Virus record (IMG/VR): IMGVR_UViG_3300017746_000044
Location: 1 to 37,970 of that record
Source: a virus
DNA: 37,970 nt
Strand: one strand, 5' to 3'
Part shown: in pieces, positions 1,103 to 22,900 of the stretch
Position numbering within the stretch: the first letter of the stretch is position 1
How the letters are laid out: each line of letters begins with the position of its first letter
Notes under the pieces: generated by a model
Told to the model about the DNA's origin: nothing
Database searches by the model: none
The model's input: only the letters and a program-made list of their open reading frames with translations
Translations under genes and position numbers: made by a program

Positions 1103-1978
1103 TTATTGTTCTATAGATTGAAATATTTTATTACTATCAAATACTTCACTTAAATCGTTATAAGGGAAATTATGTATACCTTCAGACAAATTAAAAGGAG
1201 CATATGATGCCTCTTCATAATTTAATTCTTTTGTAAATGGGTTTGATTTAATATTATCATGAAGTTTATAACCAAAAATTTCAGGTTTTGTATTTGACCA
1301 ACATACAGTTGATTTTAAATTTAATGCTGCTGCCATATGTTGAACAAAACTATCTATTAATATTCTTTTATCTGATAATAATAATAGTACTGCTATACTT
1401 CTAAATCCATCTAAAGCATGTAAGGTATCAGGATAAACTTTTTGATCTTCTCTTTTTATATGTACAATAGTATGGGATTCTTTATATCTATTAATTATAT
1501 CTATTACGGTAGGATCAGGTAAATCCCTTGTCCATGCATAGTTATAACCTAAATTTTGTGGACCTCCATTTGGTTGTATTGCTAATATTGGTTTATCTGT
1601 TTGGTAAAAGGGTTTAAAATAATCTAACTCAGGTTGTGTTAAATAAATTTCTGGTTGTTCATTATTATAATGTAATCCATATAAATCACACCAGGTTTTA
1701 AATAGATGTATTGGTTTTTCTAGAATAAAATTTGAGGTTCTATAAGGTTCATTTACAAAAATTTTACATTTTTTGTCTTTAATATATTTTAAATAAAAAC
1801 CACTTGTGTTATTAATATTATATATTTCATCAACATTTGGATTATTTAAAAATACATCTTTAAACGCTGTAACTACTACTAGATGAGAATTTTTATAACG
1901 TTTTTTAATAACTTTTACCATTGCTGTAGCCATGATAGATTTACCTAGACCACCCTCTATTTGGAATATTATATTCAT
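1103..1978 (-). CDS. GT9-like (heptosyltransferase-fold) glycosyltransferase
   Basis: A 291-residue protein resembling glycosyltransferase family 9 (ADP-heptose:LPS heptosyltransferases, GT-B fold). The N-terminal half begins FQIEGGLGKSIMATAMVK, matching the family's glycine-containing first loop and helix. It continues with the usual pattern of a strand ending in a distant 'NNPNVDEIYNI' segment. The C-terminal half carries IQPNGGP (about 134-140) and the donor-site signature region DSFVQHMAAALNLKSTVCW (209-227), the counterpart of the D-S-x-x-x-H-x-A-A motif. The length is slightly shorter than cellular enzymes (320-350). No signal peptide or transmembrane helix is present, so it should act in the cytoplasm. 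It lies one small gene downstream of a giant Ser/Thr-rich fibre, so virion-protein glycosylation is a reasonable hypothesis. Host surface-sugar modification is the alternative. Confidence 0.75.
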   Translation of the reverse strand: MNIIFQIEGGLGKSIMATAMVKVIKKRYKNSHLVVVTAFKDVFLNNPNVDEIYNINNTSGFYLKYIKDKKCKIFVNEPYRTSNFILEKPIHLFKTWCDLYGLHYNNEQPEIYLTQPELDYFKPFYQTDKPILAIQPNGGPQNLGYNYAWTRDLPDPTVIDIINRYKESHTIVHIKREDQKVYPDTLHALDGFRSIAVLLLLSDKRILIDSFVQHMAAALNLKSTVCWSNTKPEIFGYKLHDNIKSNPFTKELNYEEASYAPFNLSEGIHNFPYNDLSEVFDSNKIFQSIEQ

Positions 1979-2041: not shown

Positions 2042-2365
2042 TTAATTCCAAGGTTTTCCTGTTGCTTCTGTTACATTTGATATTTCTAATAATGAAGAAG
2101 CTAAAGAAGCAGAATTCCATGTTTCATAAGATGTATAATCAATAGAACTAGTTACCCAAGCTAATACATCACCTTCTGTTAAGTTTTCATAAGGAACAAA
2201 ATTTTCATCAGTTGAACTACCAGATATTTCTATATCTCCTACTTTTCTTCTAGAGTAAGATTTACTTCCACTATTAATGTAAGATATACAAGCAAACTTA
2301 ACTTTATTAACTACACCGTTAGTTACATTTCTATTTAATTCATAAATTTTCCAAGTATGTTTCAT
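2042..2365 (-). CDS. Small fibre-linked conserved phage protein
   Basis: A 107-residue protein starting MKHTWKIYELNRNVTNGVVN and ending TEATGKPWN. The pattern is: an N-terminal 'H-T-W-K-I' strand, a charged middle, a segment 'Y-E-N-L-T-E-G-D-V-L-A-W-V', and a short C-terminal tail ending P-W. It matches my recollection of a small protein family found beside tail-fibre genes in cyanophages and other marine T4-like phages (DUF7936-type; name from memory). Its start lies only six bases after the stop of the giant fibre gene, so the two are probably translated from one message. A role in fibre assembly or decoration is inferred from position only. No catalytic motif is visible. Confidence 0.7.
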   Translation of the reverse strand: MKHTWKIYELNRNVTNGVVNKVKFACISYINSGSKSYSRRKVGDIEISGSSTDENFVPYENLTEGDVLAWVTSSIDYTSYETWNSASLASSLLEISNVTEATGKPWN

Positions 2366-2371
2366 ATTTTT

Positions 2372-5300
2372 TTATCCTTCTAATTCTTGAATACGTTGTT
2401 CTAGTTGTTCTACTTTAGTATTTAATTCCTTTATGGCATTAATAGCAGCAAATATAAGTGGATCTTGTTGGAAACCTAATAAATCTGTAGTTTCTTCTTC
2501 ATCATTTTCATTTAATTTAGCTGTAAAATTATGAATTGTTTCTGGGAAAATACTTTGTATTTCTTGGGCTATGATACCAATTCCACTTCCTGTTGGATGG
2601 TTAGCTGCACCAGTATAATCAAATGTTCTTGGTTGGATTTGTATAATATCACTTAAACTCTTAGTATAGTTTTGAATATTGGTTTTTAATCTTTCATCTG
2701 AAGAGTTTGACCAACTTCCACCAAATGGTTTAGCTGCGCTACCATTTACAAAGAATGTATAAAAAGAACATCCATTTGTAGAATTAACTGCTACTTGACC
2801 ATTAGATGTACCACTTCCTATTACAGCAAATTTAGTACTTCTTGAAGTATCTGAAGTACCATTACCAACAGCAAATCTATGTACACAGGTAGAACCAGCA
2901 TAATCATTAAATTTACCAACAATAACTTGAGAATCTCCTCTAGCTGCAGTTGCACTTGTTGGAGTAGTAATACCACAACCTATAGCAACTTGAACATTAC
3001 CTTTACTTCCTACTGATCCATTCCCAAGAACTATACTATATGCTCCAAAATTATTATTATAACCCCCAGCCATGAATGAATAACTACCATCCCCATCTGA
3101 TATATTACAAATTCCATTTACTGCTGTATAACCATTTATGTTAGTATCCATGGTGATACAATTAGATCCTCCACTTCCAATAAAGTTATGGTTTCCTGCT
3201 TGGATATAATTTTGAGCTCCTCCTACTATAGCATTTCCTATTCCACTCGTAATTTCATTGCAAAATCCACCTGCTATAATATCACAACCTGAACCAAGAG
3301 CTTTATTCAAACATCCTCCTAATACTGCGGAGTTTGTACGACATGCACAGTTACCTTGACCAAATGCAAATGAACCTTCATTAGTTGCTTTAGTACCAGA
3401 TCCACCTCCTGCAAATGAGGAATTACCAGAAGCAGTAGCACCTGTACCAATTACAAAGGATTGACAACCACTAGCTGTATTACCACATCCTGAAGCAACT
3501 GCATCTAATCCTGATGCTAAATTTGTTTGACCTCCAAGTGCAAATGAATTACCTCCTTTTGCATTATTAACAGCACCAAATGCTGCAGAAGCACCTCCTG
3601 ATGCTGTTACTGCGTAACCATAAGCTATTGATTGATCTCCAGTAGCTTGAGCAAATTCTCCACCTGCTGCTGCATAATTTCCTTGAACTAAATTTTCTTT
3701 ACCTGAGATTATTGTACTAAATGATATTTGGGAACTACCTGATATTGTATTCATACAACCTCCTACTATGGTAGAAAAAGGAGCAAAACAAAGGCTATTC
3801 TTTTCTCCTCCAACTATGGCAGCACAACAAGAAGCATTACATACTTTATTTCTATTACCACCAAGTACACTAGTAGCAACTGAACAATAATCAACATAAT
3901 TATCAGTACCAGCTCCAATAAAAGATGCTATACCTGCGTTACAATTATCTTGTCCTGCAACAACAGCACCAAGATCTCGACTAGCATAATTTGTACATCC
4001 ACTTCCTATAAAGTTCATTTGTGCTGAACTTGTATTTGCAAAACCTGCCCCAATAAATGAACATTGACCATTATTCATATTACATGCTCCTCCGGCAATA
4101 GTTGCATTTTGGGTACCCATAGTAATAAGATGATCATGACCACCTAATACAGATGTTAAATTACCAAGATTAGATGTACTACCACTAGTAAAGTTTATTC
4201 TATCAGAATTACTCATACCTACAGTTAATGATCCAATTGCTACTAATGTACTGCCATTAAAAGTTAAATTAGCTTCAGCATTTAGTTCTCCTTGTACTCC
4301 TGTAGATGTTGTAACTCTATTGTTACCTAAATTAGTAATTGTAGCTGCTCCACTTGTACCACTTGAACCACTTGAACCTGAATTACCTGATGTTCCAGAT
4401 GAACCTGAAGTTCCTGAAGAACCAGATGAACCTGAATTACCTGAAGTTCCAGAAGAACCACTTGAACCTGAATTACCTGATGTTCCAGATGAACCTGAAG
4501 TTCCTGAAGAACCAGATGTTCCAGATGAACCTGATGTTCCTGAAGAACCAGATGTTCCTGAAGAACCTGCTTCTACTCTATATCCTAAATCACCATTTGA
4601 ATCTACTACTACTACACAAGTAGAAGTTTTAGTTAATAATGAAGGCATGTTTACAGTACCACTATTAAGATTTAATGGATTTGAGGTAGTACCAGCTGAT
4701 GTATTCTTAGTAAGGAATTCTAAACAACCCATAGCAGATGAACCAAGTCCTCCTCCTCCATTATTTCCCGTTGCTGTAATTGTTGATTTATTTATGGTAC
4801 CATTTTGGTTAATTTGAAGGCTACCTGAGCTCCATCCATTAACATCATTTCTTGATACTGATAAAGTTCCACCAACACCACTTGAATTTGGTCTTACGTT
4901 AAAGTTACCCTTAACTTGAGTATAACCAGTGATACACATATCACCATCTTGTTGTGTTAAACCTGAAGCACTAACTTGTAAAATTGGTACTCCTGATATA
5001 TCTGATGCTGCAAATACTGTTCCTAATAAATCATCAGTTACAGAAAATAATTGGCCTTGAGAACCTTGTACATCTAAAATTGTACTACCTGATCCTGATA
5101 CCATTAATTGAGTACCATCAAATGTTAAATTAGCTTCAGCTTGTAATTCACCTTGTGTTCCTGTTGCTGTTGTAACTCTATTATTAGCATTATCTAATAT
5201 ATTAGCTACTCCTGATGTTCCACTTGAACCACTTGAACCACTTGAACCACTACTTCCTGATGTTCCTGAAGAACCACTTGTTCCTGATGAACCATCTGTA

Positions 5301-8300
5301 CCTGCAGTTCCTGTAGTACCTGATGTACCACTTGAACCTGAAGTTCCGCTTGTACCACTTGAACCTGAAGTACCTGAAGAACCTGAAGTTCCACTTGTGC
5401 CACTTGAACCACTAGTTCCTGAAGTGCCATCTGTACCATCTGTACCAGAAGTTCCTGATGAACCACTAGTGCCACTTGTTCCACTACTTCCAGATGTACC
5501 ATTTGAACCACTTGTTCCACTTGAACCAGATGTTCCACTTGAACCAGATGTTCCACTTGTTCCTGAAGAACCTGATGTTCCTGAAGTTCCTGAAGAACCA
5601 GATGAACCTGAGTTTCCTGATGTACCTGAGGAACCTGATGTTCCTGATGAACCACTTGTTCCACTTGTTCCCGATGATCCACTCGTGCCACTTGAACCAC
5701 TTGTTCCACTTGAACCTGAAGAACCATCGTCACCTCTATCACCTGTAACTACAAATGATACTATAATGTCTTCACCATTTGTTAAACTGTTACCCCCATA
5801 TGCTTCATTACTAACATCAATTGTCCACCAAGCTCCATTATCTGTTAAATCAGAGATTGCAAATAAAAGGAAATCTAATGGATCATCTTTATCAGATAAC
5901 CTAACGTGACCTTTTACAGCTGATGTTGAACTATCTACTGTTTGTAAGAAACTTTGAATACTTTCTCCTTGATCATCAACCTCACTAATTGCCATTTCTG
6001 TAGCAGAAAATTGAGTTGAATTATTTAATCTTACATTACCTCCTCCAGGATTTGCTATTGAAGTTGATGTACTAAAAGTATAATCAAATGTAGCACCTCC
6101 AAAATTACCATCTTTTCCTGAAGTTCCTGAAGAACCTGATGTTCCTGAACTACCATTTGTACCACTAGTTCCTGATGTTCCTGAAGAACCACTAGTTCCT
6201 GATGAACCACTTGTTCCTGATGAACCATCTGTACCATCTGTTCCTGAAGTTCCGCTTGTGCCACTCGAACCTGAAGTTCCACTTGTACCACTTGAACCAC
6301 TAGTACCTGAACTACCACTTGTTCCGCTTGTTCCTGATGATCCGTCTGTACCATTTGAACCACTTGTTCCGCTTGTTCCAGATGAACCACTAGTGCCTGA
6401 ACTACCACTTGTTCCTGAAGTTCCTGAGGAACCACTTGTTCCTGATGTTCCTGAAGTTCCACTTGAACCTGAAGTTCCTGAAGTGCCACTTGTTCCACTT
6501 GTTCCAGAAGAACCTGATGTTCCTGAAGTACCATCAGTTCCACTAGTTCCTGAACTTCCTGATGTACCCGAAGTACCTGAAGTACCAGATGAACCAGAAG
6601 TTCCTGAAGTACCGTCTGTACCATTTGATCCTGAAGTTCCACTTGAACCAGATGTACCACTTGAGCCTGATGTTCCTGAAGTTCCACTTGAACCTGATGT
6701 TCCATTTGTACCTGAAGTTCCACTTGAACCTGATGTACCTGAAGTTGCTGCTGCTGTTTTCTTTTTAACAGTACCATCTGATGCTATAATAAGAACATCA
6801 TCTTCAGTACCTGTATTAACAGTACCTATATTAAGTTTATTTACGTGAGTTGTACAAGCTGAAACTGAAGTTATATCTGATCCAAGAATAAAAGCATGTT
6901 GATGTTCTGCTACATTGCAACAACCACCCCCTATAAAAGTATAATCTGCACAGTTTTCATTACTAAAACCTCCAACTATAACAAAATTATCATTGGAATA
7001 ATCAAGGCTTTTATTAGTTGAACCTCCAACAATAACACCCCATGAACCAGTAAGGTAATTGCAAATACCACCTCCTATAAAACTATTCGAACCCCCAATA
7101 CGATTACATTCTCCTCCAACTACAACATTTGCAATTCCACTTTCACCTACACTAGAAGAGATAAAGTTTTTATGGCCACCACCAATAAAGTTGTAAAAAT
7201 CAAAAGCACAATTACAAAGACCACCTACAATTACGTTATAAACATCTTGGGTTGCGTCACTTCCAAGAGTATGTCTTGCTCCACCACCTATAAAACTAAT
7301 GTTTGAACAGTTTACATTTTGACGTCCTCCTACAATTACAGAACAACACCCAGCACTAATACAGTTATTGGCACCAGCTCCAATAAAACTACCAGATGCA
7401 CCAGTAAATGCAGCACCAAGACCTGTACCAGTTATACAGTTATTTCTACCAGCTACAATAGCGGATATACCACCAGTATTGCTGTTTTCACAACCACTAC
7501 CTATAAAGTTATAATCTCCTTTATTAACACCAATGGTTCCTGAGGCACTATTACCACATCCACCAACAATAACTTGACCTATAGCACAAGTATTTATTGA
7601 GTTAGAAGAACCACCTCCAATAAATCCATATGCACAACTCCCATTTGTAACATTATTTTGACCACCAGCAATTGTTGACCAACAACCATTAGCAGTATTT
7701 GAACCACTTACAGGATGAATACCTGAATCTTCGTCCCCAGGAACATGATATTCATAAGGACCTGTTGGACCCGATAAACCACTTGTTCCAGAAGAACCTG
7801 AAGTACCTGAAGAACCATCTGTTCCACTTTCACCACTTGAACCTGAAGAGCCACTTACTCCACTAGTACCACTTGTTCCTGATGATCCACTTGTTCCATC
7901 TGAACCTGAAGTTCCACTTGTTCCACTTGAACCACTTGTTCCATCTGTACCTGAAGTTCCTGATGTACCTGAACTTCCGGATGTACCTGAAGAACCATTT
8001 GATCCACTAGTTCCAGAACTTCCTGAAGTACCTGAACTACCATCTGTACCATTTGATCCACTAGTACCACTTGTACCTGAAGAACCATCTCCACCTGAAG
8101 CACCATCTAAATTAACTTCCCATGATGTATATGTACCTGAACCTACTGTTCTTGTTGGAGATAAAAATACTAATTCTCCTGTAGAACTATTATACGAATC
8201 AATTTCACATTCTTGGAAATTATTCACATCATATACAATAATAATAGATTGTGCTGTTGTATAAGCTAAACCAGTATCTACAGTTATTGTACCACTATTA

Positions 8301-11300
8301 CCTAAAGTAAAAGAAGTTGATGATGTAGTTGCGTATTTATCTGATTCCCCACTTGTTCCTGATGTACCTGAACTTCCTGAGGTTCCTGATGTACCAGAAG
8401 AACCTGAAGTTCCACTTGTTCCTGATGTTCCACTTGTACCCGAAGAACCATCAGTACCATTTGATCCTGAAGTTCCGCTTGTACCACTTGAACCACTTGT
8501 TCCATCTGTACCATTTGAGCCAGATGTTCCTGATGTACCACTTGAACCACTAGTTCCTGATGTACCACTAGTTCCTGATGAACCATCTGTACCATCTGTA
8601 CCACTTGTTCCTGATGAACCATCTGTACCATCTGTACCTGAAGTTCCACTTGTTCCACTTGAACCTGAAGTTCCGCTTGTGCCACTTGAACCTGAGGTAC
8701 CATCTGTACCATCTGTTCCTGAAGTACCACTTGTCCCAGAAGAACCTGAATCTCCTGATGTTCCTGAAGAACCACTTGTTCCATCTGTTCCATCTGTACC
8801 TGAAGTTCCTGATGTTCCTGAAGAACCTGAAGTTCCTGAAGTACCACTAGTACCACTTGTTCCTGATGATCCACTTGTTCCTGAAGTTCCTGAAGAACCC
8901 GATGTACCTGAAGTACCATCGGTTCCATCTGTACCTGAAACACCACTTGTTCCACTTGAACCAGATGTTCCTGAAGTTCCACTTGAACCAGATGTACCAC
9001 TTGTTCCATCTGTACCGTTTGAGCCTGATGTTCCTGAAGTCCCGCTTGTACCACTTGAACCTGATGTTCCACTTGTACCACTTGAACCTGAAGTACCATC
9101 GGTACCATTTGATCCTGAAGTTCCTGAAGTTCCACTTGAACCACTTGTTCCACTTGTTCCTGAAGTTCCTGAAGAACCACTATTACCTGAAGTACCATCT
9201 GTACCATCTGTACCAGAGGTTCCTGATGTGCCCGAAGAGCCATCTGTACCTGAAGTTCCTGATGTTCCTGAAGAACCTGAAGTTCCTGAAGTACCACTAG
9301 TACCACTTGTTCCTGATGATCCACTTGTTCCTGAAACACCACTTGTTCCACTTGAACCAGATGTTCCTGAGGTTCCATCTGTACCATTTGAGCCTGATGT
9401 ACCTGAAGTACCACTAGTACCTGATGTACCTGAACTACCATCTCCACCACTAGCACCATCTAGGTTGACTTCCCATGATGTGTATGTTCCTGAACCTACT
9501 GTTCTAGTAGGTGATAAAAATACTAATTCTCCTGTAGAACTATCATATGAATCAATTTCACATTCTTGGAAGTTGTTTACATCATAAACTATGATTATAG
9601 ATTGAGCTGTTGTATAAGCTAAACCCGTGTCAACTGTTATTGTTCCACTATTACCTAAGGTAAAACTAGTAGAAGAAGTTGTAGCGTATTTATCTGATTC
9701 CCCACTTGTTCCTGATGTACCTGAAGATCCACTTGTTCCCGAAGATCCACTTGTTCCTGATGTTCCACTTGAACCACTTGTTCCAGAAGTTCCACTTGTG
9801 CCACTTGAACCACTAGTACCTGAAGTGCCATCTGTACCATCTGTACCAGAGGTTCCTGATGTTCCTGAAGAACCTGAAGTACCTGATGTACCACTACTTC
9901 CAGAAGTACCAGAAGTACCACTTGTTCCATCTGTACCATTTGAGCCAGATGTTCCTGATGTACCTGAAGATCCACTTGTACCACTTGTACCTGAAGAACC
10001 TGATGTTCCATTTGTACCTGAAGTGCCACTTGTTCCATCTGTACCTGAAGTACCTGAAGTACCATCTGTACCATCTGTTCCTGAAGTTCCTGAAGAACCA
10101 CTAGTACCATCTGTTCCGTCTGTACCTGAAGTTCCGCTTGTTCCGCTTGAACCTGAAGTTCCTGATGTACCACTAGATCCACTAGTACCACTTGTACCTG
10201 AAGAACCATCTGAACCACTTGTTCCTGATGTACCAGAAGAACCATCATCTCCTACTTCACCTGATGTACCAGAAGTTCCTGAAGTACCACTTGTTCCACT
10301 AGTTCCACTAGTTCCTGAACTACCATCTGTACCATCTGTTCCTGAAGTTCCGCTTGTACCACTCGAACCTGAAGTTCCGCTTGTTCCTGAACTACCATCT
10401 GTACCTGAAGTACCTGATGTTCCAGAAGTTCCTGAACTACCATCTGTTCCACTAGTTCCACTTGTACCACTTGAACCTGAAGTTCCGCTTGTTCCTGATG
10501 TTCCACTTGAACCATCTGTACCTGCAGTACCAGTAGTACCTGATGTTCCACTTGAACCATCTGTACCTGAAGTACCATCTGTACCACTAGTTCCTGATGA
10601 ACCTGATGTACCTGAAGAACCGCTTGTACCACTTGTTCCTGAAGAACCGCTTGTACCACTTGTTCCTGATGTACCACTTGTACCACTTGAACCTGAAGTT
10701 CCTGAAGTCCCAGATGTTCCTGAAGAACCATCTCCACCACTAGCACCATCTAAATTAACTGTCCAACTTGTATAAGTTCCTGAACCTACTGTTCTAGTAG
10801 GACTTCCAAATACTAATTCACCATTAGTATCATCATAAGTTATTACTTCACATTCTTGGAAATTATTTACATCATAAACTATGATTATGGATTGAGCAGG
10901 GGTATATGCAAGACCTGTATCAACAGTTATTGTACCACTATTACCTAAAGTAAAAGAAGTACTTGAAGTTGTAGCATATTTATCTGATTCTCCGCTTGTT
11001 CCTGATGTTCCTGAAGATCCGCTTGTTCCTGAGGAACCACTTGTTCCCGATGTACCTGATGTACCTGAAGAACCTGAAGTTCCTGAAGTGCCATCTGTAC
11101 CATCTGAACCTGAAGTTCCTGATGTACCTGAAGTTCCTGAGGAACCAGAGGTACCAGAAGTTCCTGATGAACCGCTTGTTCCACTTGTTCCAGAAGTTCC
11201 TGATGAACCGCTTGTTCCACTTGTTCCTGATGAGCCATCTGTACCATTTGAGCCACTTGTTCCACTTGTACCACTTGAACCATCTGTACCATCTGTACCT

Positions 11301-13084
11301 GAAGTTCCTGAACTTCCAGATGTTCCTGATGAACCATCTGTTCCTGAAGTACCATCTGTTCCACTAGTTCCTGATGAACCTGATGTCCCACTTGAACCAG
11401 AGGTACCTGAGGTTCCTGATGTTCCTGAGGTTCCACTAGTCCCACTAGTTCCACTTGTTCCTGAAGAACCATCTGTACCTGAAGTTCCTGATGTGCCTGA
11501 TGTTCCTGATGAACCACTTGTCCCATCTGTACCTGAAGTTCCTGAGGTGCCTGAAGTACCAGAAGTTCCTGAAGTACCAGAGGTTCCGCTTGAACCACTA
11601 GTTCCTGATGTGCCTGAAGAACCATCTGTTCCACTTGTTCCGGATGTGCCTGAAGAACCATCTGTTCCACTTGTTCCATCTGTACCAGATGTTCCTGATG
11701 TTCCTGAAGAACCTGAAGTTCCTGAAGAACCTGAAGTTCCACTTGAACCACTTGTTCCTGATGTACCATCTGTACCTGAAGTTCCACTTGTTCCACTTGA
11801 ACCACTTGAACCTGATGTTCCACTTGAACCAGATGTACCTGAAGTTCCTGAGGTTCCTGATGTACCACTTGTTCCACTTGTTCCTGATGAACCTGAAGTT
11901 CCACTAACACCAGATGATCCTGAAGAACCTGAAGTTCCTGATGTACCACTTGAACCTGAAATTCCACTTGTTCCAGATGTTCCACTTGAACCTGATGAAC
12001 CAGATGAACCATCTCCACCTGAAGCACCATCTAAATTAACTGTCCAACTTGTATAAGTTCCTGAACCTACTGTTCTGGTTGGAGATTGGAATACTAATTC
12101 ACCTGTAGAACTATCATATGATGTAACTTCACATTCTTGGAAGTTGTTTACATCATAAACTATGATTATAGATTGAGCAGGAGTATAAGCTAAACCAGTT
12201 TCTACTGTTATTGTACCATTTCCTCCTAATGTAAATGAAGTACTTGAGGTTGTTGAATATCTATCTGAAGTACCACTAGTACCAGATGAACCATTTGTTC
12301 CCGAAGTTCCATTTGTTCCTGAAGTTCCATTAGTACCTGAAGTACCTGATGAACCATCATTACCATCAGCACCTGATGTTCCTGAAGAACCACTAGTACC
12401 TGATGTACCACTTGAACCTGCTACATTACCTGATAGGTTTACTTCCCATGATGTATATGTACCTGAGCCTACTTGTTCTATTAAACTACCAAAACAGAGT
12501 ACCCCTGTTACTTCATCATATGATACTACTAAAGCTGTTTGAAAAGCAGTATCACTATTAGCCATAATCATTTCTTGGCCTGCTGAATAAGCTAATCCTG
12601 TTTCTACTGTAATACAAGTATTACCTGTTCCTATTGCTACTGAAGTTGTTGAAGTTGTTTGATATCTATCCCCATCTGCTCCTGAAGTACCTGAAGTACC
12701 ACTTACACCTGATGAACCTGAAGTACCTGAAGAGCCACTTGATCCTGATGAACCTGAAGTACCTGATGAACCAGATGTTCCTGAAGTACCTGAAGTACCT
12801 GATGAACCAGCACTTATAGCTGATACCTTTTTTAATTGTTTTGTTGAAGAATCTACTACTACTACTTCATATCCTGATGAAGCATCAGGTAAAGTATCAA
12901 TTACTACACTTCCTGATAACGTAGATGATCCTGTTATATTTAAAGATCCTGATATTGATATATCATATGCATCTTCAGCGGTAAATGCATCTACAGATTG
13001 AGATACATGCCAAGAGTTGATTGTAAAACCTTGTGAAATTTCATCAACATTTGGATTAAAAATATTTTCTAACTTCTTAGCCAT
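2372..13084 (-). CDS. Giant collagen-like tail fibre with beta-roll domains and C-terminal S74 chaperone
   Basis: A 3,570-residue fibre subunit. In order: an N-terminal virion-docking segment (about 1-90) shared with the next gene upstream; blocks of Gly-X-Y triplets made almost only of Gly, Ser, Thr, Asp and Asn; an 80-residue beta module repeated five times (near residues 139, 274, 701, 1131 and 1582); a cysteine-rich YadA-head-like beta-roll region (about 1790-2080) built from '(F/V)IGGG..N' turns; a module at about 2323-2450 (FDYTF...GWWTIDV) that I recall from other phage fibres; another beta region (about 2625-2840); a second, longer beta-roll (about 2975-3430); and the S74 intramolecular chaperone (about 3460-3570). 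The last carries SSDERLKTNI, where S74 family members self-cleave after trimerisation, then a coiled coil ending EQLEQRIQELEG. There is no signal peptide and no YadA membrane anchor, so this is a virion fibre rather than an autotransporter. It is expected to form a very long receptor-binding trimer. Confidence 0.93.
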   Translation of the reverse strand: MAKKLENIFNPNVDEISQGFTINSWHVSQSVDAFTAEDAYDISISGSLNITGSSTLSGSVVIDTLPDASSGYEVVVVDSSTKQLKKVSAISAGSSGTSGTSGTSGSSGTSGSSGSSGSSGTSGSSGVSGTSGTSGADGDRYQTTSTTSVAIGTGNTCITVETGLAYSAGQEMIMANSDTAFQTALVVSYDEVTGVLCFGSLIEQVGSGTYTSWEVNLSGNVAGSSGTSGTSGSSGTSGADGNDGSSGTSGTNGTSGTNGTSGTNGSSGTSGTSDRYSTTSSTSFTLGGNGTITVETGLAYTPAQSIIIVYDVNNFQECEVTSYDSSTGELVFQSPTRTVGSGTYTSWTVNLDGASGGDGSSGSSGSSGTSGTSGISGSSGTSGTSGSSGSSGVSGTSGSSGTSGTSGTSGTSGTSGTSGSSGTSGSSGSSGTSGTSGTDGTSGTSGSSGTSGSSGTSGSSGTSGTSGTDGTSGTDGSSGTSGTSGTDGSSGTSGTSGSSGTSGTSGTSGTSGTSGTSGTDGTSGSSGTSGTSGTSGTDGSSGTSGTSGTSGTSGTSGTSGTSGSSGTSGSSGTSGTDGTSGTDGSSGTSGSSGTSGTDGTDGSSGTSGTSGSNGTDGSSGTSGTSGSSGTSGTSGTSGSSGTSGTSGSSGTSGTSGTSGSDGTDGTSGTSGSSGTSGTSGTSGSSGTSGSSGTSGTSGESDKYATTSSTSFTLGNSGTITVDTGLAYTPAQSIIIVYDVNNFQECEVITYDDTNGELVFGSPTRTVGSGTYTSWTVNLDGASGGDGSSGTSGTSGTSGSSGTSGTSGTSGTSGSSGTSGTSGSSGTSGSSGTSGTDGTSGTDGSSGTSGTTGTAGTDGSSGTSGTSGTSGSSGTSGTSGTDGSSGTSGTSGTSGTDGSSGTSGTSGSSGTSGTSGTDGTDGSSGTSGTSGTSGTSGTSGTSGEVGDDGSSGTSGTSGSDGSSGTSGTSGSSGTSGTSGSSGTSGTSGTDGTDGTSGSSGTSGTDGTDGTSGTSGTDGTSGTSGTNGTSGSSGTSGTSGSSGTSGTSGSNGTDGTSGTSGTSGSSGTSGTSGSSGTSGTSGTDGTDGTSGTSGSSGTSGTSGTSGSSGTSGTSGSSGTSGSSGTSGTSGESDKYATTSSTSFTLGNSGTITVDTGLAYTTAQSIIIVYDVNNFQECEIDSYDSSTGELVFLSPTRTVGSGTYTSWEVNLDGASGGDGSSGTSGTSGTSGTSGSNGTDGTSGTSGSSGTSGVSGTSGSSGTSGTSGTSGTSGSSGTSGTSGTDGSSGTSGTSGTDGTDGTSGNSGSSGTSGTSGTSGSSGTSGTSGSNGTDGTSGSSGTSGTSGSSGTSGTSGTSGSNGTDGTSGTSGSSGTSGTSGSSGTSGVSGTDGTDGTSGTSGSSGTSGTSGSSGTSGTSGTSGTSGSSGTSGTSGTDGTDGTSGSSGTSGDSGSSGTSGTSGTDGTDGTSGSSGTSGTSGSSGTSGTSGTDGTDGSSGTSGTDGTDGSSGTSGTSGTSGSSGTSGTSGSNGTDGTSGSSGTSGTSGSNGTDGSSGTSGTSGTSGTSGSSGTSGTSGSSGTSGTSGESDKYATTSSTSFTLGNSGTITVDTGLAYTTAQSIIIVYDVNNFQECEIDSYNSSTGELVFLSPTRTVGSGTYTSWEVNLDGASGGDGSSGTSGTSGSNGTDGSSGTSGSSGTSGSNGSSGTSGSSGTSGTSGTDGTSGSSGTSGTSGSDGTSGSSGTSGTSGVSGSSGSSGESGTDGSSGTSGSSGTSGLSGPTGPYEYHVPGDEDSGIHPVSGSNTANGCWSTIAGGQNNVTNGSCAYGFIGGGSSNSINTCAIGQVIVGGCGNSASGTIGVNKGDYNFIGSGCENSNTGGISAIVAGRNNCITGTGLGAAFTGASGSFIGAGANNCISAGCCSVIVGGRQNVNCSNISFIGGGARHTLGSDATQDVYNVIVGGLCNCAFDFYNFIGGGHKNFISSSVGESGIANVVVGGECNRIGGSNSFIGGGICNYLTGSWGVIVGGSTNKSLDYSNDNFVIVGGFSNENCADYTFIGGGCCNVAEHQHAFILGSDITSVSACTTHVNKLNIGTVNTGTEDDVLIIASDGTVKKKTAAATSGTSGSSGTSGTNGTSGSSGTSGTSGSSGTSGSSGTSGSNGTDGTSGTSGSSGTSGTSGTSGSSGTSGTDGTSGTSGSSGTSGTSGTSGTSGSSGTSGTSGTSGSSGTSGTSGSSGTSGSSGTSGTSGSNGTDGSSGTSGTSGSSGTSGSSGTSGTSGSSGTSGTSGTDGTDGSSGTSGSSGTSGSSGTSGTSGTNGSSGTSGSSGTSGKDGNFGGATFDYTFSTSTSIANPGGGNVRLNNSTQFSATEMAISEVDDQGESIQSFLQTVDSSTSAVKGHVRLSDKDDPLDFLLFAISDLTDNGAWWTIDVSNEAYGGNSLTNGEDIIVSFVVTGDRGDDGSSGSSGTSGSSGTSGSSGTSGTSGSSGTSGSSGTSGNSGSSGSSGTSGTSGSSGTSGTSGSSGTSGSSGTSGSNGTSGSSGTSGTSGSSGTSGTDGTDGTSGTSGSSGTSGTSGSSGTSGSSGTSGTSGSSGTSGTTGTAGTDGSSGTSGSSGTSGSSGSSGSSGSSGTSGVANILDNANNRVTTATGTQGELQAEANLTFDGTQLMVSGSGSTILDVQGSQGQLFSVTDDLLGTVFAASDISGVPILQVSASGLTQQDGDMCITGYTQVKGNFNVRPNSSGVGGTLSVSRNDVNGWSSGSLQINQNGTINKSTITATGNNGGGGLGSSAMGCLEFLTKNTSAGTTSNPLNLNSGTVNMPSLLTKTSTCVVVVDSNGDLGYRVEAGSSGTSGSSGTSGSSGTSGSSGTSGSSGTSGNSGSSGSSGTSGNSGSSGSSGTSGSSGTSGNSGSSGSSGTSGAATITNLGNNRVTTSTGVQGELNAEANLTFNGSTLVAIGSLTVGMSNSDRINFTSGSTSNLGNLTSVLGGHDHLITMGTQNATIAGGACNMNNGQCSFIGAGFANTSSAQMNFIGSGCTNYASRDLGAVVAGQDNCNAGIASFIGAGTDNYVDYCSVATSVLGGNRNKVCNASCCAAIVGGEKNSLCFAPFSTIVGGCMNTISGSSQISFSTIISGKENLVQGNYAAAGGEFAQATGDQSIAYGYAVTASGGASAAFGAVNNAKGGNSFALGGQTNLASGLDAVASGCGNTASGCQSFVIGTGATASGNSSFAGGGSGTKATNEGSFAFGQGNCACRTNSAVLGGCLNKALGSGCDIIAGGFCNEITSGIGNAIVGGAQNYIQAGNHNFIGSGGSNCITMDTNINGYTAVNGICNISDGDGSYSFMAGGYNNNFGAYSIVLGNGSVGSKGNVQVAIGCGITTPTSATAARGDSQVIVGKFNDYAGSTCVHRFAVGNGTSDTSRSTKFAVIGSGTSNGQVAVNSTNGCSFYTFFVNGSAAKPFGGSWSNSSDERLKTNIQNYTKSLSDIIQIQPRTFDYTGAANHPTGSGIGIIAQEIQSIFPETIHNFTAKLNENDEEETTDLLGFQQDPLIFAAINAIKELNTKVEQLEQRIQELEG
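8102..8341 (-). repeat. Fibre beta module, copy 5
   Basis: An 80-residue module running from DKYATTSSTSFTLG to SWEVNLDG. It is almost identical in protein sequence to copy 4 (the only difference I see is Asp versus Asn in the 'SYDSSTGE' turn). It is bordered on both sides by Gly-X-Y repeat. Confidence 0.88.
9455..9694 (-). repeat. Fibre beta module, copy 4
   Basis: An 80-residue module of the same length and boundaries as copies 2, 3 and 5. It shares TTAQSIIIVYDVNNFQECEI with copy 5, while copy 3 has TPAQ in that place. Copies 4 and 5 are therefore probably the most recent duplication. Confidence 0.88.
10745..10984 (-). repeat. Fibre beta module, copy 3
   Basis: An 80-residue module. It shares the DKYATTSS start with copies 4 and 5 and the SWTVNLDG end with copy 2, making it intermediate between the two types. 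Confidence 0.88.
12026..12265 (-). repeat. Fibre beta module, copy 2
   Basis: An 80-residue module beginning DRYSTTSSTSFTLGG and ending SWTVNLDG. It is clearly homologous to copies 3-5 and more distantly to copy 1. Confidence 0.88.
12428..12670 (-). repeat. Fibre beta module, copy 1 (most divergent)
   Basis: An 81-residue module beginning DRYQTTSTTSVAIG and ending SWEVNLSG. The frame of conserved positions (TVETGLAY, GSGTYTSW) matches copies 2-5, but the central strand reads MIMANSDTAFQTALV instead of IIIVYDVNNFQECEV. It is the oldest or most diverged copy and lies nearest the virion-docking end. Confidence 0.85.
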
Positions 13085-13117: not shown

Positions 13118-14191
13118 TTATGGTACTAAGCATACCTTTTTATATGCTGTTCCATTATGAAAATATAACTCAGCTGCTCCACCTCCTGCATCACAAGCTA
13201 CTAACATTCCTGCTTGTCCACTACCAATTGGATTTCTTAATTGCATTTGTGTTGTACACCCTACATTTAAATTATTTACATGAACCGTACAAGCAGCACA
13301 ACTTGTTAAACAACTACCTATCATAACAGATTGATCGTGTGATAATTGGATTTCATTATCATTTCCAATTATATTACCCCCAGGTGCACATACTTTATTA
13401 TCTAACCCCCCTAGTATAGCAGAATATTTTGAATTTTCAATAATATTACCTTCACCATTTAATATTGTATTATAAGAACAACCACTAGCATTACCACATA
13501 TTTTATTACAACAACCATTTAATATTGTACCAAAACTATTAGTTGTTCCACTACCCATTATTTCATTCTCACACCCATTTATTAAATGGGAATTACCACA
13601 TCTATTTATTTCATTACATGACCCTCCTAATATTACACTATAACCTGAATTTTTATTAATTGTATTTCGGAATCCACCTAATATATTAGAATTATCAGCT
13701 GAAATAATATTGTTTAATGTTCCACCACCTATTATAGAACAATCAGAAGCATTTGAAATATTATTTGATCTACCTCCTCCAATATAAGAAAAACTAGAAG
13801 TTACATTATTATTAGCACCACTACCTATTCCTGAGTTTTGGCAATTGTTAGTAGAATTTTGTCCTGCTATTGGTCTAATATCTTCTCCACTTCCTGTTAT
13901 ATAAGCACCTGTTGCCGGGGGAGATACAAAACATTGACAAGAGGCAAATGTTACATTACCATTACTAGAATTATAAGTTAAAACGTGATTTTGAGTATTT
14001 TGACCTATACCTTGTAAATACATTGCTCCATTTGAACTAGAGAAAAATGTACTACCCGTTACTACAAGAGAACCAGATATTGATATATCATATGCTTCTG
14101 CTTTTGTAAAAGCATTTATAGATTGTGATACTTGTGTAGCAAGTATTGTACAACCCGTTTGTATTCCTGTATTTGAAAGTGTACATGCCAT
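13118..14191 (-). CDS. Short cysteine-rich beta-roll fibre protein
   Basis: A 357-residue protein that looks like a miniature of the giant fibre. Its N-terminus (SQSINAFTKAEAYDISISGS, about 21-40) matches the giant fibre's N-terminus (SQSVDAFTAEDAYDISISGS), suggesting both dock at the same virion site. Residues about 105-290 form repeated 'IIGGG..N.I' turns of the YadA-head/beta-roll type. The C-terminal part (TVHVNNLNVG) matches the end of the giant fibre's first beta-roll (TTHVNKLNIG). About 20 cysteines (near 6%) are present, very high for a cytoplasmically assembled virion protein. There is no S74 chaperone and no collagen-like repeat. The start overlaps the stop of the preceding gene in a TAATG. 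Likely a short fibre, collar or fibre-base protein. Confidence 0.8.
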   Translation of the reverse strand: MACTLSNTGIQTGCTILATQVSQSINAFTKAEAYDISISGSLVVTGSTFFSSSNGAMYLQGIGQNTQNHVLTYNSSNGNVTFASCQCFVSPPATGAYITGSGEDIRPIAGQNSTNNCQNSGIGSGANNNVTSSFSYIGGGRSNNISNASDCSIIGGGTLNNIISADNSNILGGFRNTINKNSGYSVILGGSCNEINRCGNSHLINGCENEIMGSGTTNSFGTILNGCCNKICGNASGCSYNTILNGEGNIIENSKYSAILGGLDNKVCAPGGNIIGNDNEIQLSHDQSVMIGSCLTSCAACTVHVNNLNVGCTTQMQLRNPIGSGQAGMLVACDAGGGAAELYFHNGTAYKKVCLVP

Positions 14192-16929: not shown

Positions 16930-19900
16930 TTACTCTATTAGTTTTTTATCAACTAAGTCAGATAATAGTTCATCTGGGTTAGTTTTTAGGTTTGATGTTG
17001 GGTACTCCGGTGCAATAAACCCTGTTGAGGATGCACTTATAGGTGGATTACCGTAAGGGTATTGTTGGAATGTAATAAGAGAACTTGCATCTTCCACGTA
17101 CCTTCTTACTAAGAAAAAATCAAGAGGTCTAAATGATTGTTGTCCAAAGTTTACTTTTTTAATTTGTGGTTGAATAGTTCCTTCCTCATCACCTGAATAT
17201 AAAGAAGCTGTTGCTTTAACATCTAAAGATGTACCTATACCCCCAGGAGTAGATTCAAATACAATATCATTACTTGGATGTATATCTCTATCTAAAACTA
17301 CTTCTAACATCCCAACACCATCTTGTATATAACTACTATTTTGTTGTTGAGATGGAGTAATGATTGATGTTATAGAATAAGTTTCTTCTTCTTTACCCAT
17401 AAATCTAATTTCATCATAAGGTTGTACATTCCATGCAGTTTGAATTGTTGGGAATTGTGCAAAACCAGGTTCTATACCATCAGGAAAATCTTTATTAAAA
17501 CTTGAAGTATAAATTAAATCTTTTTGAATAAATCCTCTTCCATATGCCTTATTCATTTGAGATGAACTCATTATTAAAGTATTAGTAATTTTGTTTCCAC
17601 TACCATCTTCTTTAAATATCCAAAAAGGAGCAACTGCTGCTGTAACAGGATTACTTTGTGCACCATTTAATGCCATTCGTACTTCAAATCCACCACCTTG
17701 ACCCGTTGGAAAAAATACAGGATCTAATGCTACATTTCTTTGACCCGAGGTTAAAACAATCATATTACCTGTTCCTATAGCTCTAAAGTTTCTACCTTGT
17801 CTAATAGTAGATGAAGGTACTGTACATGAAACATACCATCTTTGTTTTTGAATAGTACCTCCTAATTGTACTGCTTGAGCAGTTATACCTTGATTAGCAA
17901 GTAAACCATCAATCACATCGGCATTCCAATTAACTGTAACTCCACCAGTTCCTGAAGTACCGGTAATATAAGCAGAGGCTACTTGTGAATAATTAATAGT
18001 ATTTGTTAAAAGATTACCATCTGATTGTAGTATATAAGTTACTAATTCAACTTTAACATTTGATGGTGCAAAGGTATTAAATGAGGTACTAGAAGGACCT
18101 TGAGTATTTGTTCTTTGAAACTTAATGTTCATACTTCCCAATTGTACAGAAGTATTATAATTACCACTTTTACTCTCATTTGAAGTTTGAACTGCATAAG
18201 TAAGAGGGGAAGTATCAATACCTACTTTCATTTCTAAAGTATAAGGTTGAGAAGTAGAATTACCATTGCCTGCATTACCTACTGGATAATCATCGTCATT
18301 TGGGATTCTTATTATTCCTGTTGCAGTATCATATACTTGATAAGTAGTACTACCATCTACAAATGAAGCTGTAACATTAGGAGAAACATTCCCATTTGGG
18401 TTTTTGACTGTTGAATTAAATTCATCAGTAAAGTTTATTCCTTGTACCCCAACTTCTTCACTTTCGGCTAAAAAACCATAATTTGCAAAAGTTGGAACAA
18501 TAGTAGGATCCACAGGTTCATCTCCAATCAAATCTAGTCCCTCACAAAACTCATCTGGTAGGCCTGTAGCGGTATCAAAAGAAGATGTTATAGGGAATAA
18601 ATTTGATTTCTGAGTGTATATAATAGGAACTGGTTTTTGGGTTACTTTTTTAAATTCAACTAACCCATTTAAAGGATTTAATATAGTATTATCTGTATTT
18701 TGATTTAAAGCTACTGTTCCTTTAGATATCTCAGGATATGAATCAAATGTACCTTGAACATTATATAAAGTAATATCTGATAATTTAGGTTGAGTAGCAG
18801 CTCCATCTTGTCCAATTAAATATTGTATGTTATATTGAGTAGTATTATTTAATAAAGGATATAAATCTGTAGTATTTTTAAAATAAGCTAAAAATCCTCT
18901 TGATATTTCAATATTTGGTAATTTTCCATATCCACCAGAATCACCAGGAGTCCATGAATTTATTTTAGCACTATTTGTTCGAGTACCAAAATATCTAGGA
19001 TTTGCAGATGAAAATTTAGTATAATTAGATTCAGGTACTGAGGCTCTTGAAGCTGAAAAGTCAATAATTTGTTGCCAATTACTTGGTATAACTGTACCAA
19101 AATTATAATCTACATCTTGTAATCTATCATTTTTTCTTCCTTCACTATAATTATTTAATAAAGGTTGGCAATCTAAAGCAAGATTAAAGTTAGAATCATC
19201 ACTAAATACAGTAGGTATAGAAGGATCTACATTAGGAGGAATTGATGAAGAAAAACTCATACTATATTCAGTAACAATAAGTCCCTTTTGAACTACTGCT
19301 GCGTTATTAGATCCACTGCTTACTAATAAAGCCATTTTTAAAACTGTATTATAATCTAATTGAGCAGGTAAAATATTTTCTTGTAATGTAATTCTTTTTC
19401 CATTTCCATGAGCTGTACTATATGAACTAGTTATATACATTATATCTCCACCTAATTCTGGCATTTCATTAGGGAAGTTGTTTGCTGAACCTGAATATAT
19501 TATTAGAGATGCTGTTGTCCATGTACCACCCGCTGCTGGGCTAATTCCTGATCCGCCATATTCATCAGTTCCATATTCAGCATTTCCATATAATGCTGAT
19601 GTAGGAGCAGAGGCATCAAAAGCTTGTACAAAAACAGAAGCAGTCATTGACAATGTTCCAAATTGTGGTGTTACATCAAATATATAGGCACCATCTAAAC
19701 TTGAAGTTGCAGATTGAGAATATACAACATATGCATCTATAATTTTAGTTGCAAAACCTGCTGGTATTGGTACTCCACCTACATATCTATTACTTACTGA
19801 TCCTGTTACTACATAAGGATTATTCCAAGTTGTAAGTTCATTTGGAAATGGACTACCTACAACAGCATCAATTTGCGGGTTTGGTAATGAAGTATTATAT

Positions 19901-22900
19901 ATTTCACTAAAATTAACTGATAATCCTACAACTGGATTTTCAACAGATAATACTAACTGTTGTCCTGCTTGTAATGTAATTGTTGTATCAGCAGATAATA
20001 AACCTGATTGTAATGAATATACTGAGGATCCATCTGCTGATGTTATTTGTCCTGTGGTTGTAATATCATTATTAATATATATTCTTAGATTACCAGCATT
20101 TTGATTTCTAAAAAGTCTAACATTATAATCACCACCAATTGTAATATTTATTCTACGATATGAAGGACCAAATGGAAAACCAAAGAATCGCATATCTTCA
20201 CTTATATTTTGTGCTCCTCCATTATCAGCTCCAGGACTTAGACCAACTCCATCAAAACTAACAGCTGCAAATTGATATACATCTATAGTTTGTGATGTAT
20301 TATTTGTATCTTTATAATCTATAGTAATAGGGTTATGTCCTGATCCTACTTGGTTTTCTAAATCATAAGTTGCATAATCTCCAAATCTAGTCCATAAACC
20401 AAATTCTGTTCTACCATTAGTAAATCTACCAGTATCAAAATCACTCATTGTGAAGATATAATCTCCTCTAGGAAATATTATATCAGGTAAGGTTTGATCT
20501 CCTGCGGGTTGTGTTCCAGTTAAAAGAGATAGTGATGATGTATTTTCACCATCATAAAGTTCTCCAAATAATATTGGATCTTGCCCAAATCCTAAAGCTG
20601 TAGAATTTTGAACTGTTTCACCATTATTGGTTGTTAAATCATAAAAATAAGGATGTTGATTAACATAAGTACCACCAAGTAGGTTAAATCCACCTCCTCC
20701 TCCTCCTAATGGATTAGTAATAACTGCTGAACAAGCTCCATTTGTATTATTTACATCTAATACAATTGAAAAACTACCAAACGAAATTGGAGATATAACT
20801 TGACTTTGATTTAAACTAGCATCTGCACAAATAGCTACTGTTTGATTATTAAGCATTGAAATAGGTCCTGTAAGCACTCCATCTTCATCAGTATAATAAA
20901 GTTGACATATAAAATCATTACAAGTTACATCATAAGAATTTCCAGTTGGAGTTGGTGGTGGTACAGAAGCTTGTTCATTTTGATACATTCTTAATGTAGC
21001 AAAAGGAGTACCATCTGATTGTGAAATCGATATTGCTGAACCAGAACCAATAGCTGGACCTATAGCACCTGGAATATTTAGTTTAGTTTGGTAAGTTGTA
21101 AATATAAAAGGTCTTACTTGTCTTAATTCACTATATATTTGAAAACTTCCTGATGTTTGAGTTACTGATGGGAAAGTTTCTGTTGCATTTAAAGGTTTTT
21201 GATAGGTTAAGGTATTTGGAATATTTCCTTGTGTACCCAACATAGTTGCAAATTTTCGTCGTACATCATCATAATAGGGTGGAGGACCAGTTAACGAAAT
21301 AATCGGACTACCACTATATACCATAGGATCATATTCTAAATAGGGTTCACTTGGAGCTCCTGATCCTGTTTCTGTTAAATAATAAATTTTAAATGGTCTA
21401 TGGATATATCTATTATATCTCCAAGCATTTGCATCTGGGGCAGCATTTTGCCATTCACCTCCAGCAGTAAATCCACTATTTTCTCCTTGGTATACCCATA
21501 ATTCATTATCATTAGAAATTGGGATTGTTAAACTTGTTTGACCCGGAGGAGTATAACCTCCTGGTAGATTAGTTCCTTGAGATATTATTTGTGCTACTAG
21601 ACTACTTGAATATAAAGCACCTGGGGTTTTTAAATCGTTTTGAAATTGAGAACCAGATATATAAATAGCATTATTGCTAGCATTATAATAATAATTTACT
21701 CCTTGAGCCGAACTTTGGCTAGTCCAAGCTATATTAAAATAATTATTTGTTGCTACAGGTCCTACTGATGAATCCGGAATATTAGAATAATCTAAAAATG
21801 ATTCTGATGGAATTTGTATCCAGCTACTTCCCTGTTGGTCTAAATGAGCATTCATAAACCATGGGTAATTACTTGCGGGATCTGTTCCTGACTGTAATGT
21901 AGTATCAGTATTATCTATTTCATGTGATCCTGTATTAAAGTTATCTAATACATCACTTAATATACCTGTAGAAGATATAAAAGTACCATTTTGATAAAAA
22001 TTAGAACTAGCCCAACCTCTAAAAAATGATTCTGTAGGGTAGTTTTTGTTTACTAAAGGACTTCCAGGTAAGGGGAAATAACCTTGTGGTATTGAGGATG
22101 ATATTCCTGTGTTTATTACTACATCAGGATCAGTACTTGTATCATCTGTAGCATACCAAATAAAGTCTCCACTTGCTGAAAAGTTAAAATCAAAAAATGC
22201 AGAATCTGCAGAAGAAACAGCAGTTGATGAAATTTCTGGTACTGTAAAAGCTAAAGCGGCACCAACACTATTAGCATTTGGTGATAAATCTGCTGGTTGG
22301 ATTGCTACTGATTCTATATAATATGTAGCATTTCTTTCAGTTAATATATTCCCATTAAAATCTGTTGCATTACTAAAACTAAATATAATAAATTCAACTC
22401 CCTGTATAAAAGAAGCAATATTATAACCATTATATGTCTCTAAAGACATTTTTATATAAGTTACAACTCCATCACTATTAGTACTTAAAGTTTGACCATT
22501 ATTCCAAAACCATACAAACCCTGATGGAGGTTGATTACTTGGGTCTAAGAAGTCTTGTTCAGAAATAGTATTAGTATTATTATTTCCATCAGCACTCCAA
22601 AATACAGGTATATATCTATATTCAGTCATACTAACTTTAAAATATGCACTACAAATATCATTTAAACCTACTTCAATATTAGAACCACTAAACTCTCCAT
22701 TATAAAATTCTCTTTGATCTGTTCTATCAATTGGAGCTGAACCACTAATAGATTCCCAAGCTTCATTCCAACTTTGTGTTACAAAATATCTATTATCAGG
22801 ACCTAAATTTAAGGTTCCAGATGGGTAAGTTTGTAAACCATTAAAAGGTTCAAATCCACCACCTGTACCTCCACTAAATTTATATATAGCAGAACCCGAA

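Follow-up and report, generated by a model that had tools for sequence, protein, structure and literature searches.

A 3,570-residue phage tail fibre with nine nearly proline-free Gly-X-Y blocks

Anatomy of the fibre gene

The stretch analysed here (the window) is a viral sequence of 37,970 nucleotides, IMG/VR record IMGVR_UViG_3300017746_000044, positions 1 to 37,970, and the element under study is a tail fibre gene at positions 2372-13084. A sequence-only reading had placed there a fibre of 3,570 residues, about half of which (some 1,700 residues by estimate) would be collagen-like Gly-X-Y triplets. The open reading frame is confirmed, on the minus strand, and counting gives nine unbroken blocks of 585 triplets in all, equal to 1,755 residues or 49% of the protein. 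The nine rods joined by folded domains that had been described were all recovered in the map, which is given below from the N to the C terminus; L002-L005 are IMG/VR contigs of the same phage.

2372..13084, minus strand: fibre gene, 3,570 amino acids (open reading frame; Pfam Collagen at 709.8 bits and Peptidase_S74; PHROG tail fibre families)
12809..13084, minus strand: N-terminal domain, residues 1-92, presumed to anchor the fibre to the baseplate; by eye like the N-terminal part of the second fibre gene next to it
12665..12808, minus strand: Gly-X-Y block 1, 16 triplets
12410..12670, minus strand: beta module copy 1 (divergent)
12266..12418, minus strand: Gly-X-Y block 2, 17 triplets
12017..12265, minus strand: beta module copy 2
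10985..12028, minus strand: Gly-X-Y block 3, 116 triplets
10736..10990, minus strand: beta module copy 3, a predicted compact beta domain with core predicted local distance difference test (pLDDT) values above 90
9695..10747, minus strand: Gly-X-Y block 4, 117 triplets
9446..9700, minus strand: beta module copy 4
8342..9457, minus strand: Gly-X-Y block 5, 124 triplets
8093..8347, minus strand: beta module copy 5
7754..8104, minus strand: Gly-X-Y block 6, 39 triplets, ending with the blocks' only two prolines (GPT GPY)
6740..7753, minus strand: folded domain, residues 1778-2115, whose repeats look by eye like those of the later adhesin-head-like region; relatives in 14 loci, four of them L002-L005
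6101..6739, minus strand: Gly-X-Y block 7, 71 triplets
5744..6100, minus strand: folded domain, residues 2329-2447; relatives in 15 loci, four of them L002-L005
5204..5743, minus strand: Gly-X-Y block 8, 60 triplets
4568..5203, minus strand: folded domain, residues 2628-2839; relatives in 8 loci, four of them L002-L005
4343..4567, minus strand: Gly-X-Y block 9, 25 triplets
2702..4342, minus strand: YadA-type trimeric adhesin head repeats, residues 2915-3461 (phmmer)
2375..2701, minus strand: S74 intramolecular chaperone, residues 3462-3570, starting SDERLK (PF13884, E 7e-11, residues 3462-3516)

Gly, Ser, Thr, Asp and Asn, which had been taken for the only residues of the blocks, make up 1,723 of the 1,755 positions (G 589, S 657, T 378, D 74, N 25; 98.2%), so that the claim fails for the remaining 1.8%. 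The minor residues include five Glu, two Pro, two Arg and one Lys, while Cys, Gln, His, Trp and Met are absent. The expectation of hardly any proline was thus borne out, and that of no lysine or arginine very nearly so, since the lone Lys and both Arg sit in edge triplets. Among the triplets are 309 GTS, 156 GSS, 56 GTD and 12 GSN, and not a single GST; the Y position holds 486 Ser and 3 Thr. Set beside the Pfam Collagen family (PF01391; 709.8 bits against a cut-off of 27.2), glycine recurs at every third residue in long unbroken runs (585/585), with no register shift within blocks of 116-124 triplets. Stabilising imino acids and opposite-charge pairs are lacking (the 1,755 residues include just 2 Pro, 1 Lys and 2 Arg), in line with the further claim that the textbook stabilisers of bacterial and phage collagens, Pro and Lys-Asp/Glu pairs as far as the available texts describe them, are missing here. 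At 2.88 Å per residue, a value given in PMC3368898, blocks of 16, 17, 116, 117, 124, 39, 71, 60 and 25 triplets (N to C) would form rods of about 14, 15, 100, 101, 107, 34, 61, 52 and 22 nm, with a sum of about 505 nm.

The folded parts of the chain point to a trimer. In phmmer comparisons with solved adhesin heads, the head-repeat region matched BpaC (3.6e-7), YadA (2.2e-4), CbpF (2.7e-4) and UspA1 (2.4e-3), the best-matching stretches lying mostly in residues 3124-3305 and the UspA1 match starting at 2966. S74 proteins and YadA-type heads are both trimeric, and because the fibre carries an adhesin-head-like region together with an S74 chaperone, it is probably a homotrimer. The SDERLK motif at residue 3462 is, we assume, the self-cleavage site of the S74 domain, at which the chaperone would presumably be cut off from the fibre. 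The module of about 85 residues, present in five copies, was modelled as a compact beta domain with pLDDT of at least 90 for 73 of 126 residues, the array flanks falling below 50. The N-terminal domain was found in 10 loci (four being L002-L005), and relatives of the 2329-2447 domain also occur in loci of other array chemistry (e.g., L045-L047, L049 and L050).

An origin of the blocks as an assembly or slippage product of a short repeat would fit the low complexity of the coding DNA and the differing lengths of the later blocks in relatives; we nevertheless regard it as highly improbable. The glycine codons of the 585 triplets are GGT 307, GGA 242, GGC 27 and GGG 9, with GG kept in every one (0/585 replaced), and it is this constancy beside varied third bases that makes slippage or misassembly unlikely. 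Moreover, the longest exact DNA repeat within the fibre gene is only 96 bp, 107 different 9-mers encode the block triplets, and inter-triplet identity in the three longest blocks is lower at the DNA level (0.60-0.64) than at the protein level (0.73-0.77), with no higher-order period seen at the 14 lags tested between 1 and 30. The same block lengths recur in the four other contigs L002-L005, which differ in length and may not be independent samples; one block reads 72 rather than 71 triplets there, the count having taken in an extra triplet with Gly at X. In the related phages L007, L010 and L015, as in L002, blocks 1 and 2 measure 16 and 17 triplets, while later block lengths differ. The constancy of these first two lengths perhaps reflects a length constraint near the baseplate.

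Homologous arrays and selection on their residues

To survey related fibres, a profile search with the beta module was performed, which returned 59 viral loci and 4 in bacterial genomes (two Bacteroidetes, one Chitinophagaceae, one Pedobacter). We examined 61 module-found loci, including L001 and leaving aside L003-L005, which are the same phage as L002, and L065-L069, which are the window itself. This set was not picked by array chemistry, but it was gathered around the window's module, and its loci are related to one another, some being near-duplicates (e.g., L006/L007, L012/L015, L026/L028 and L034/L035). Period-3 glycine arrays accompany the module in 57 of the 61 loci, L058, L059, L060 and L063 having none. 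Array chemistry varies among these homologues (GTS/GSS, GPT/GAT, GVQ/GPQ, GIQ, GFT/GSQ) while the period of three is constant, and a single open frame, L011, combines four Ser/Thr arrays with one Pro array. L049/L050 show an aromatic flavour, for instance a 203-triplet array in which GFT alternates with GS[Q/I/V] beside the same module.

Arrays with at least 80% T, S, N and D at X and Y were classed as Ser/Thr-type, a cut that does not fix the position of Thr. This chemistry occurs in 39 module-found loci (163 arrays, 11,484 triplets), the window's phage among them as L002. Further loci came from a Gly-X-Y pattern search, with at least 120 rows in each of two pattern scans; a 735-kb phage (L001) carries GTS arrays, and period-3 arrays elsewhere reach at least 788 triplets (L094, some glycine changes being allowed in the count). 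The suggestion that the chain is special to this phage is therefore not supported, given the 39 module-found loci, the additional pattern-found ones and the cultured Microcystis phage described below.

The module itself had no significant match among Pfam, NCBIfam or PDB sequences. Against solved structures, its best PDB match had an E value of 0.032 and its best Z score was 7.8, to the JBD30 baseplate (guide value 8). In BFVD, 25 viral proteins matched at E up to 0.001, and 15 of these bear the name 'Collagen triple helix repeat'. The top match, at 72% identity, belongs to Virus NIOZ-UU157 and is uncharacterised; the collagen likeness of the module sharers is known from deposited names only.

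The arrays join the module on its C-terminal side in a shared register. With a pattern along the lines of W-x-[VI]-N-L-x plus four subsequent Gly-x-x, we found this side in register in 96/102 Ser/Thr-flanked, 12/14 Pro-flanked and 6/14 other module copies. Judged by the shared module and C-side register, the Ser/Thr blocks stand where ordinary collagen would, though their N-side join is looser. The glycine phase before the module, viewed at window modules 1-5 (12410-10990) and in the wider set, is shifted by one residue in 32 of the 102 Ser/Thr-flanked copies, and the phase after the module is nearly constant.

Residue use at X and Y is reversed between the two array types. In the module-found Ser/Thr arrays, X is Thr in 62% and Ser in 25%, and Y is Ser in 78%, Thr in 7%, Asp in 6% and Asn in 4%. 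Thr is commoner at X than at Y in 38 of the 39 Ser/Thr loci, with one tie, and commoner at Y in all 18 loci with Pro-type arrays (37 arrays, 2,567 triplets); loci within each class are related and do not count as independent trials. The reversal is seen even within L011, where Thr counts are X 251 and Y 0 in the Ser/Thr arrays but X 0 and Y 77 in the Pro array. Module-found arrays of the 'other' class follow no clear rule (Thr prevails at X in 7 loci and at Y in 10). Clustering after masking the arrays gave 23 Ser/Thr clusters, one of 107 loci, with Thr at X in 21, and 42 Pro clusters with Thr at Y in 39; the clustering and the broad counts mix in pattern-found loci, and the search patterns favoured Ser at Y or Thr at Y.

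We know of no propensity scale that would predict Thr moving from Y to X from one homologous array to another. As read from sequence, the residue code of the Ser/Thr arrays differs from that of known collagens and is their strangest feature, Thr at Y being the rule for microbial collagens in one of two reviews of bacterial and viral collagen-like proteins (PMC8968730, PMC13138384).

Selection on glycine was assessed in seven pairs of related phages, the window not being included, with 11 equal-length array pairs at 78-99.6% DNA identity and 682 codons per position; these locus pairs were picked from a wider set of 38 array pairs in which loci recur. Glycine codons showed 161 silent and 10 amino-acid changes, all of the latter Gly/Ala, compared with 117 silent and 42 amino-acid changes at X and 72 silent and 50 at Y. 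Across the 39 module-found Ser/Thr loci, Gly occupies 98.15% of 11,484 Gly positions, and 196 of the 212 replacements are Ala. Because Ala is only one of the six one-step changes possible at the first two bases of a glycine codon, this bias implies a need for a small residue. In the window and its relatives, glycine is thus under selection as a buried small residue, as expected of a PF01391-type repeat.

Phage context and neighbouring genes

The fibre gene is flanked by the following genes.

1103..1978, minus strand: GT9-fold glycosyltransferase-like protein, 291 amino acids (AlphaFold2 and Foldseek)
2042..2365, minus strand: DUF7936 protein between the fibre and the glycosyltransferase-like gene (Pfam, 3.7e-16)
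13118..14191, minus strand: second, short fibre-like gene with an N-terminus similar to that of the fibre; relatives in 16 loci, four of them L002-L005

The window's baseplate wedge protein shares 44% identity over 98% with its counterpart in Flavobacterium phage vB_FspM_immuto (Immutovirus), whose tail region is syntenic with the window and whose further genes are 31-74% identical. Among the 11 immuto tail-region proteins examined, blastp found no match for the window's fibre, second fibre, DUF7936 or glycosyltransferase-like proteins, and none of the 11 holds a run of six or more Gly-X-Y triplets. The rods therefore look lineage-specific.

More distant synteny of the tail region was observed with the cultured Microcystis phage Mel-JY01 (PP395634), in which a plus-strand open frame (L310:2-3049) carries long GTS/GSS/GTD arrays like those of the window but differs in having GTR triplets and Pro-rich stretches. 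This frame of 1,016 codons is open at the record start and is overlain by a minus-strand hypothetical protein (WWT39287.1) and, at its end, a small plus-strand coding sequence. When the arrays were searched against cultured phages, tblastn gave no match, the low-complexity filter probably masking them, and blastn gave three, four and four records. Two Erwinia records among the blastn matches were set aside; in L313, the one examined, the matching stretch runs antisense to a protein annotated there, part of which is rich in PEV/PVV, and we take the match as antisense resemblance.

The glycosyltransferase-like protein was assigned by structure. Its best AlphaFold2 model had a pLDDT of 81.2 and a predicted template modelling (TM) score of 0.81 (the other four models, pLDDT 51-73), and Foldseek matched this model to the GT9 structure 3tov (1.6e-10), heptosyltransferase II (1.5e-9) and TibC (7.1e-6), with query TM scores of 0.55-0.68. 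By sequence, the protein stays below curated family cut-offs (NCBIfam heptosyltransferase III, 14.8 against 170.2 bits; Pfam GT9, E 0.14 in one of seven), and a PDB search with its alignment returned one unrelated match only (E 0.37). L147, a 385-kb record (G048) with a Ser/Thr-type array, has two GT9-fold protein genes, at 16 kb and 177 kb.

Three other window genes were noted. Positions 537-1019 encode a GIY-YIG protein (SegE-like, PF19835, 1.2e-26), for which the label 'NAD synthetase' carried by its PHROG family and immuto homologue looks wrong. A 3,063-residue tail-region protein at 16930-26121 has no PHROG match at E 0.001, and only parts of it align with a 1,265-residue immuto protein (35-39% identity). 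The short protein at 36590-37240 has, by eye, an N-terminal lipoprotein signal (LLACSKE), in line with a Bacteroidota host.

Possible structures of the rods and their meaning

We propose, with a probability of about 0.57, that the gene encodes a tail fibre whose period-3 rods add up to about 500 nm and are most likely triple helices free of imino acids and clamped by the folded modules. It would be the homotrimeric fibre of a contractile-tail phage related to immuto, with three identical parallel chains anchored by the N-terminal domain. Chain register would be set by the beta modules, the adhesin-like head repeats and the C-terminal S74 chaperone, the last presumably removed thereafter. Between these clamps, the nine blocks would extend as three-chain polyproline-II (PPII) rods with Gly at the rod axis, Thr/Ser at X and Ser/Asp/Asn at Y. 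The clamps and the length of the rods would supply their stability, perhaps aided by low temperature or modification, and the long flexible rods would present the distal head to the host surface.

Several points count against this proposal. Low stability per triplet is to be expected, because imino acids and charge pairs are lacking. Host-guest values rank Ser above Thr at X and Thr above Ser at Y, and place Asp and Asn among the less favourable residues at Y; by this measure the Ser/Thr arrays carry the weaker residue at both positions. Substitution costs given in reviews are 2-15 °C at X and 0-21 °C at Y (PMC8968730, PMC13138384, available text). Within the module-found set, glycine is replaced more often in Ser/Thr arrays (1.85%) than in Pro arrays (0.27%, 99.73% being Gly), and the pattern-found loci L091, L135 and L109 have 7-12% of their Gly positions replaced, Gln being the main substitute in two of the three. 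In L135 and L109, many Gly positions of the Ser/Thr arrays are Gln, a departure from strict period-3 glycine. The N-side join keeps the Pro-type phase in only 55/102 Ser/Thr-flanked copies compared with 11/14 Pro-flanked ones (the remainder of the 102 being 32 shifted by one residue, 1 in a different phase and 14 outside the test pattern). The array flanks in the module model are of low confidence (pLDDT below 50), though this is uninformative for a trimer, and among the papers listed in the open-access literature there was none with an experiment on a Ser/Thr-type member.

The main rival, a reading we hold to be clearly less probable, is a period-3 assembly of three chains or bundled PPII helices that is not supercoiled collagen, for example an untwisted parallel trimer packed via Gly. 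Such a trimer would favour Thr at X and Ser/Asp/Asn at Y, and the reversed residue use would then be the signature of a different packing. The retention of glycine with mostly Ala alone tolerated suggests that period-3 packing is needed, and the X/Y preference opposite to that of Pro-type arrays, even within L011, is what it would lead one to expect. There are precedents in a collagen trimer reported to lack superhelical twist (PMC11869133), which its authors liken to the non-twisting helices of the S16 long tail fibre and of snow flea antifreeze protein, and in a glycine-rich PPII bundle found at the tip of the fibre in T-even phages, T4 excepted (PMC8409303). On the other hand, the module and C-side register are those of Pro-containing collagen, the blocks match Pfam Collagen, and the PPII bundles described in these sources, as far as their available text goes, are short loop-joined helices, whereas the blocks here run unbroken for up to 124 triplets.

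Disorder of the blocks, which had been put forward as the alternative to a triple helix, is disfavoured, and we consider it rather unlikely. The blocks would then be flexible spacers whose Gly-X-Y pattern is left over from an ancestral collagen or a repeat expansion and no longer folds. Their Gly, Ser and Thr composition is that of flexible linkers and has a low intrinsic triple-helix propensity, and both the low-confidence flanks and the 7-12% glycine replacement in L091, L135 and L109 would suit such spacers. Against this, none of the 585 window glycines is changed despite varied third bases, glycine changes in the seven pairs are rarer than those at X and Y and are solely to or from Ala, and no register shift occurs within 116-124 triplets. 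The strong X/Y asymmetry shows that X and Y are not equivalent and therefore also speaks against disorder, as does a C-side register shared with Pro-containing collagen. A further possibility, to which we give slightly less credence still, is that the Ser/Thr arrays are a scaffold for dense O-glycosylation by the GT9-fold neighbour, with sugars stabilising or shielding the rod. TibC is among the fold matches, and TibC/AAH modify serines of autotransporter adhesins. On a mapped TibC-treated peptide, Ser was modified and Thr was not (PMC4358343, available text), which the nearly pure-Ser Y position (486 Ser, 3 Thr) would suit. Close enzyme relatives (E <1e-80) were present in 14 of the 49 Ser/Thr-type records selected and in none of the 17 Pro-type ones (Fisher p 0.014). 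Six of those 14, however, are themselves rows of the profile, which was built on the window plus six Ser/Thr-type loci, and with related records p lacks the meaning it would have for independent trials; weak partial matches in three further Ser/Thr-type and two further Pro-type records were left out. Each of 11 loci that carry the enzyme has it downstream of the arrays, sharing their strand in 7 and on the opposite one in 4. Yet a close relative is missing from 35 of the 49 records, which are fragments in which absence is no proof, and enzyme presence is not tied to Ser at Y within the class (medians 0.69 with and 0.76 without, p 0.54). The sequence also falls below curated family cut-offs, and the enzyme could equally act on host surface glycans, leaving its role in the rods weakly supported.

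Phage collagen fibres are already known, and Ser/Thr-type relatives of the clamped-rod fibre proposed here are already in databases (PHROG tail fibre families, deposited 'collagen' proteins, L001). EPclA and EPclB of Escherichia coli prophages are likewise tail fibres with Gly-X-Y rods between folded domains, and recombinant EPclA was shown by circular dichroism and related work to be a trimer with a triple helix; their rods, as described in the available text of PMC3368898, are Pro-rich at X, highly charged and 111-322 residues long, unlike the 1,755 residues with 2 Pro and 3 Lys/Arg of the window. Scl and BclA share with the window a Gly-X-Y repeat independent of hydroxyproline, BclA being glycosylated, but collagens of this type have Pro at X in 19-31% and Thr at Y in 32-48%, or charge pairs (PMC8968730, PMC13138384, available text), where the window has Thr at X, Ser at Y and neither Pro nor pairs. 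The S16 tail fibre adhesin and snow flea antifreeze protein resemble it in their Gly-rich period-3 helices; PPII bundles, in the available text of PMC8409303 and PMC11869133, place several short loop-joined helices in each chain, in contrast to the unbroken blocks of 16-124 triplets seen here. Among the matches listed in the open-access literature, we found no account of a Ser/Thr-type, nearly Pro-free phage collagen.

The available text of these sources names imino acids and charge pairs as the main triple-helix stabilisers, and natural blocks of 116-124 triplets that have neither, yet keep their glycine under selection, make a Gly/Thr/Ser-only helix, or a sister fold, testable. The same blocks open to test the clamping by folded modules and the true requirements at X and Y. 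A broader and more tentative idea, which we consider possible but less probable than not, is that they represent a widespread class of phage fibres with imino-free Ser/Thr period-3 trimeric rods hundreds of nanometres long, following a code of their own, Gly-[Thr/Ser]-[Ser/Asp/Asn], with non-classical packing and possibly serine modification. If the proposed structure is true, very long collagen-type fibres would be common among environmental phages, and the rods would constitute a nearly Pro-free protein material needing no hydroxylation.

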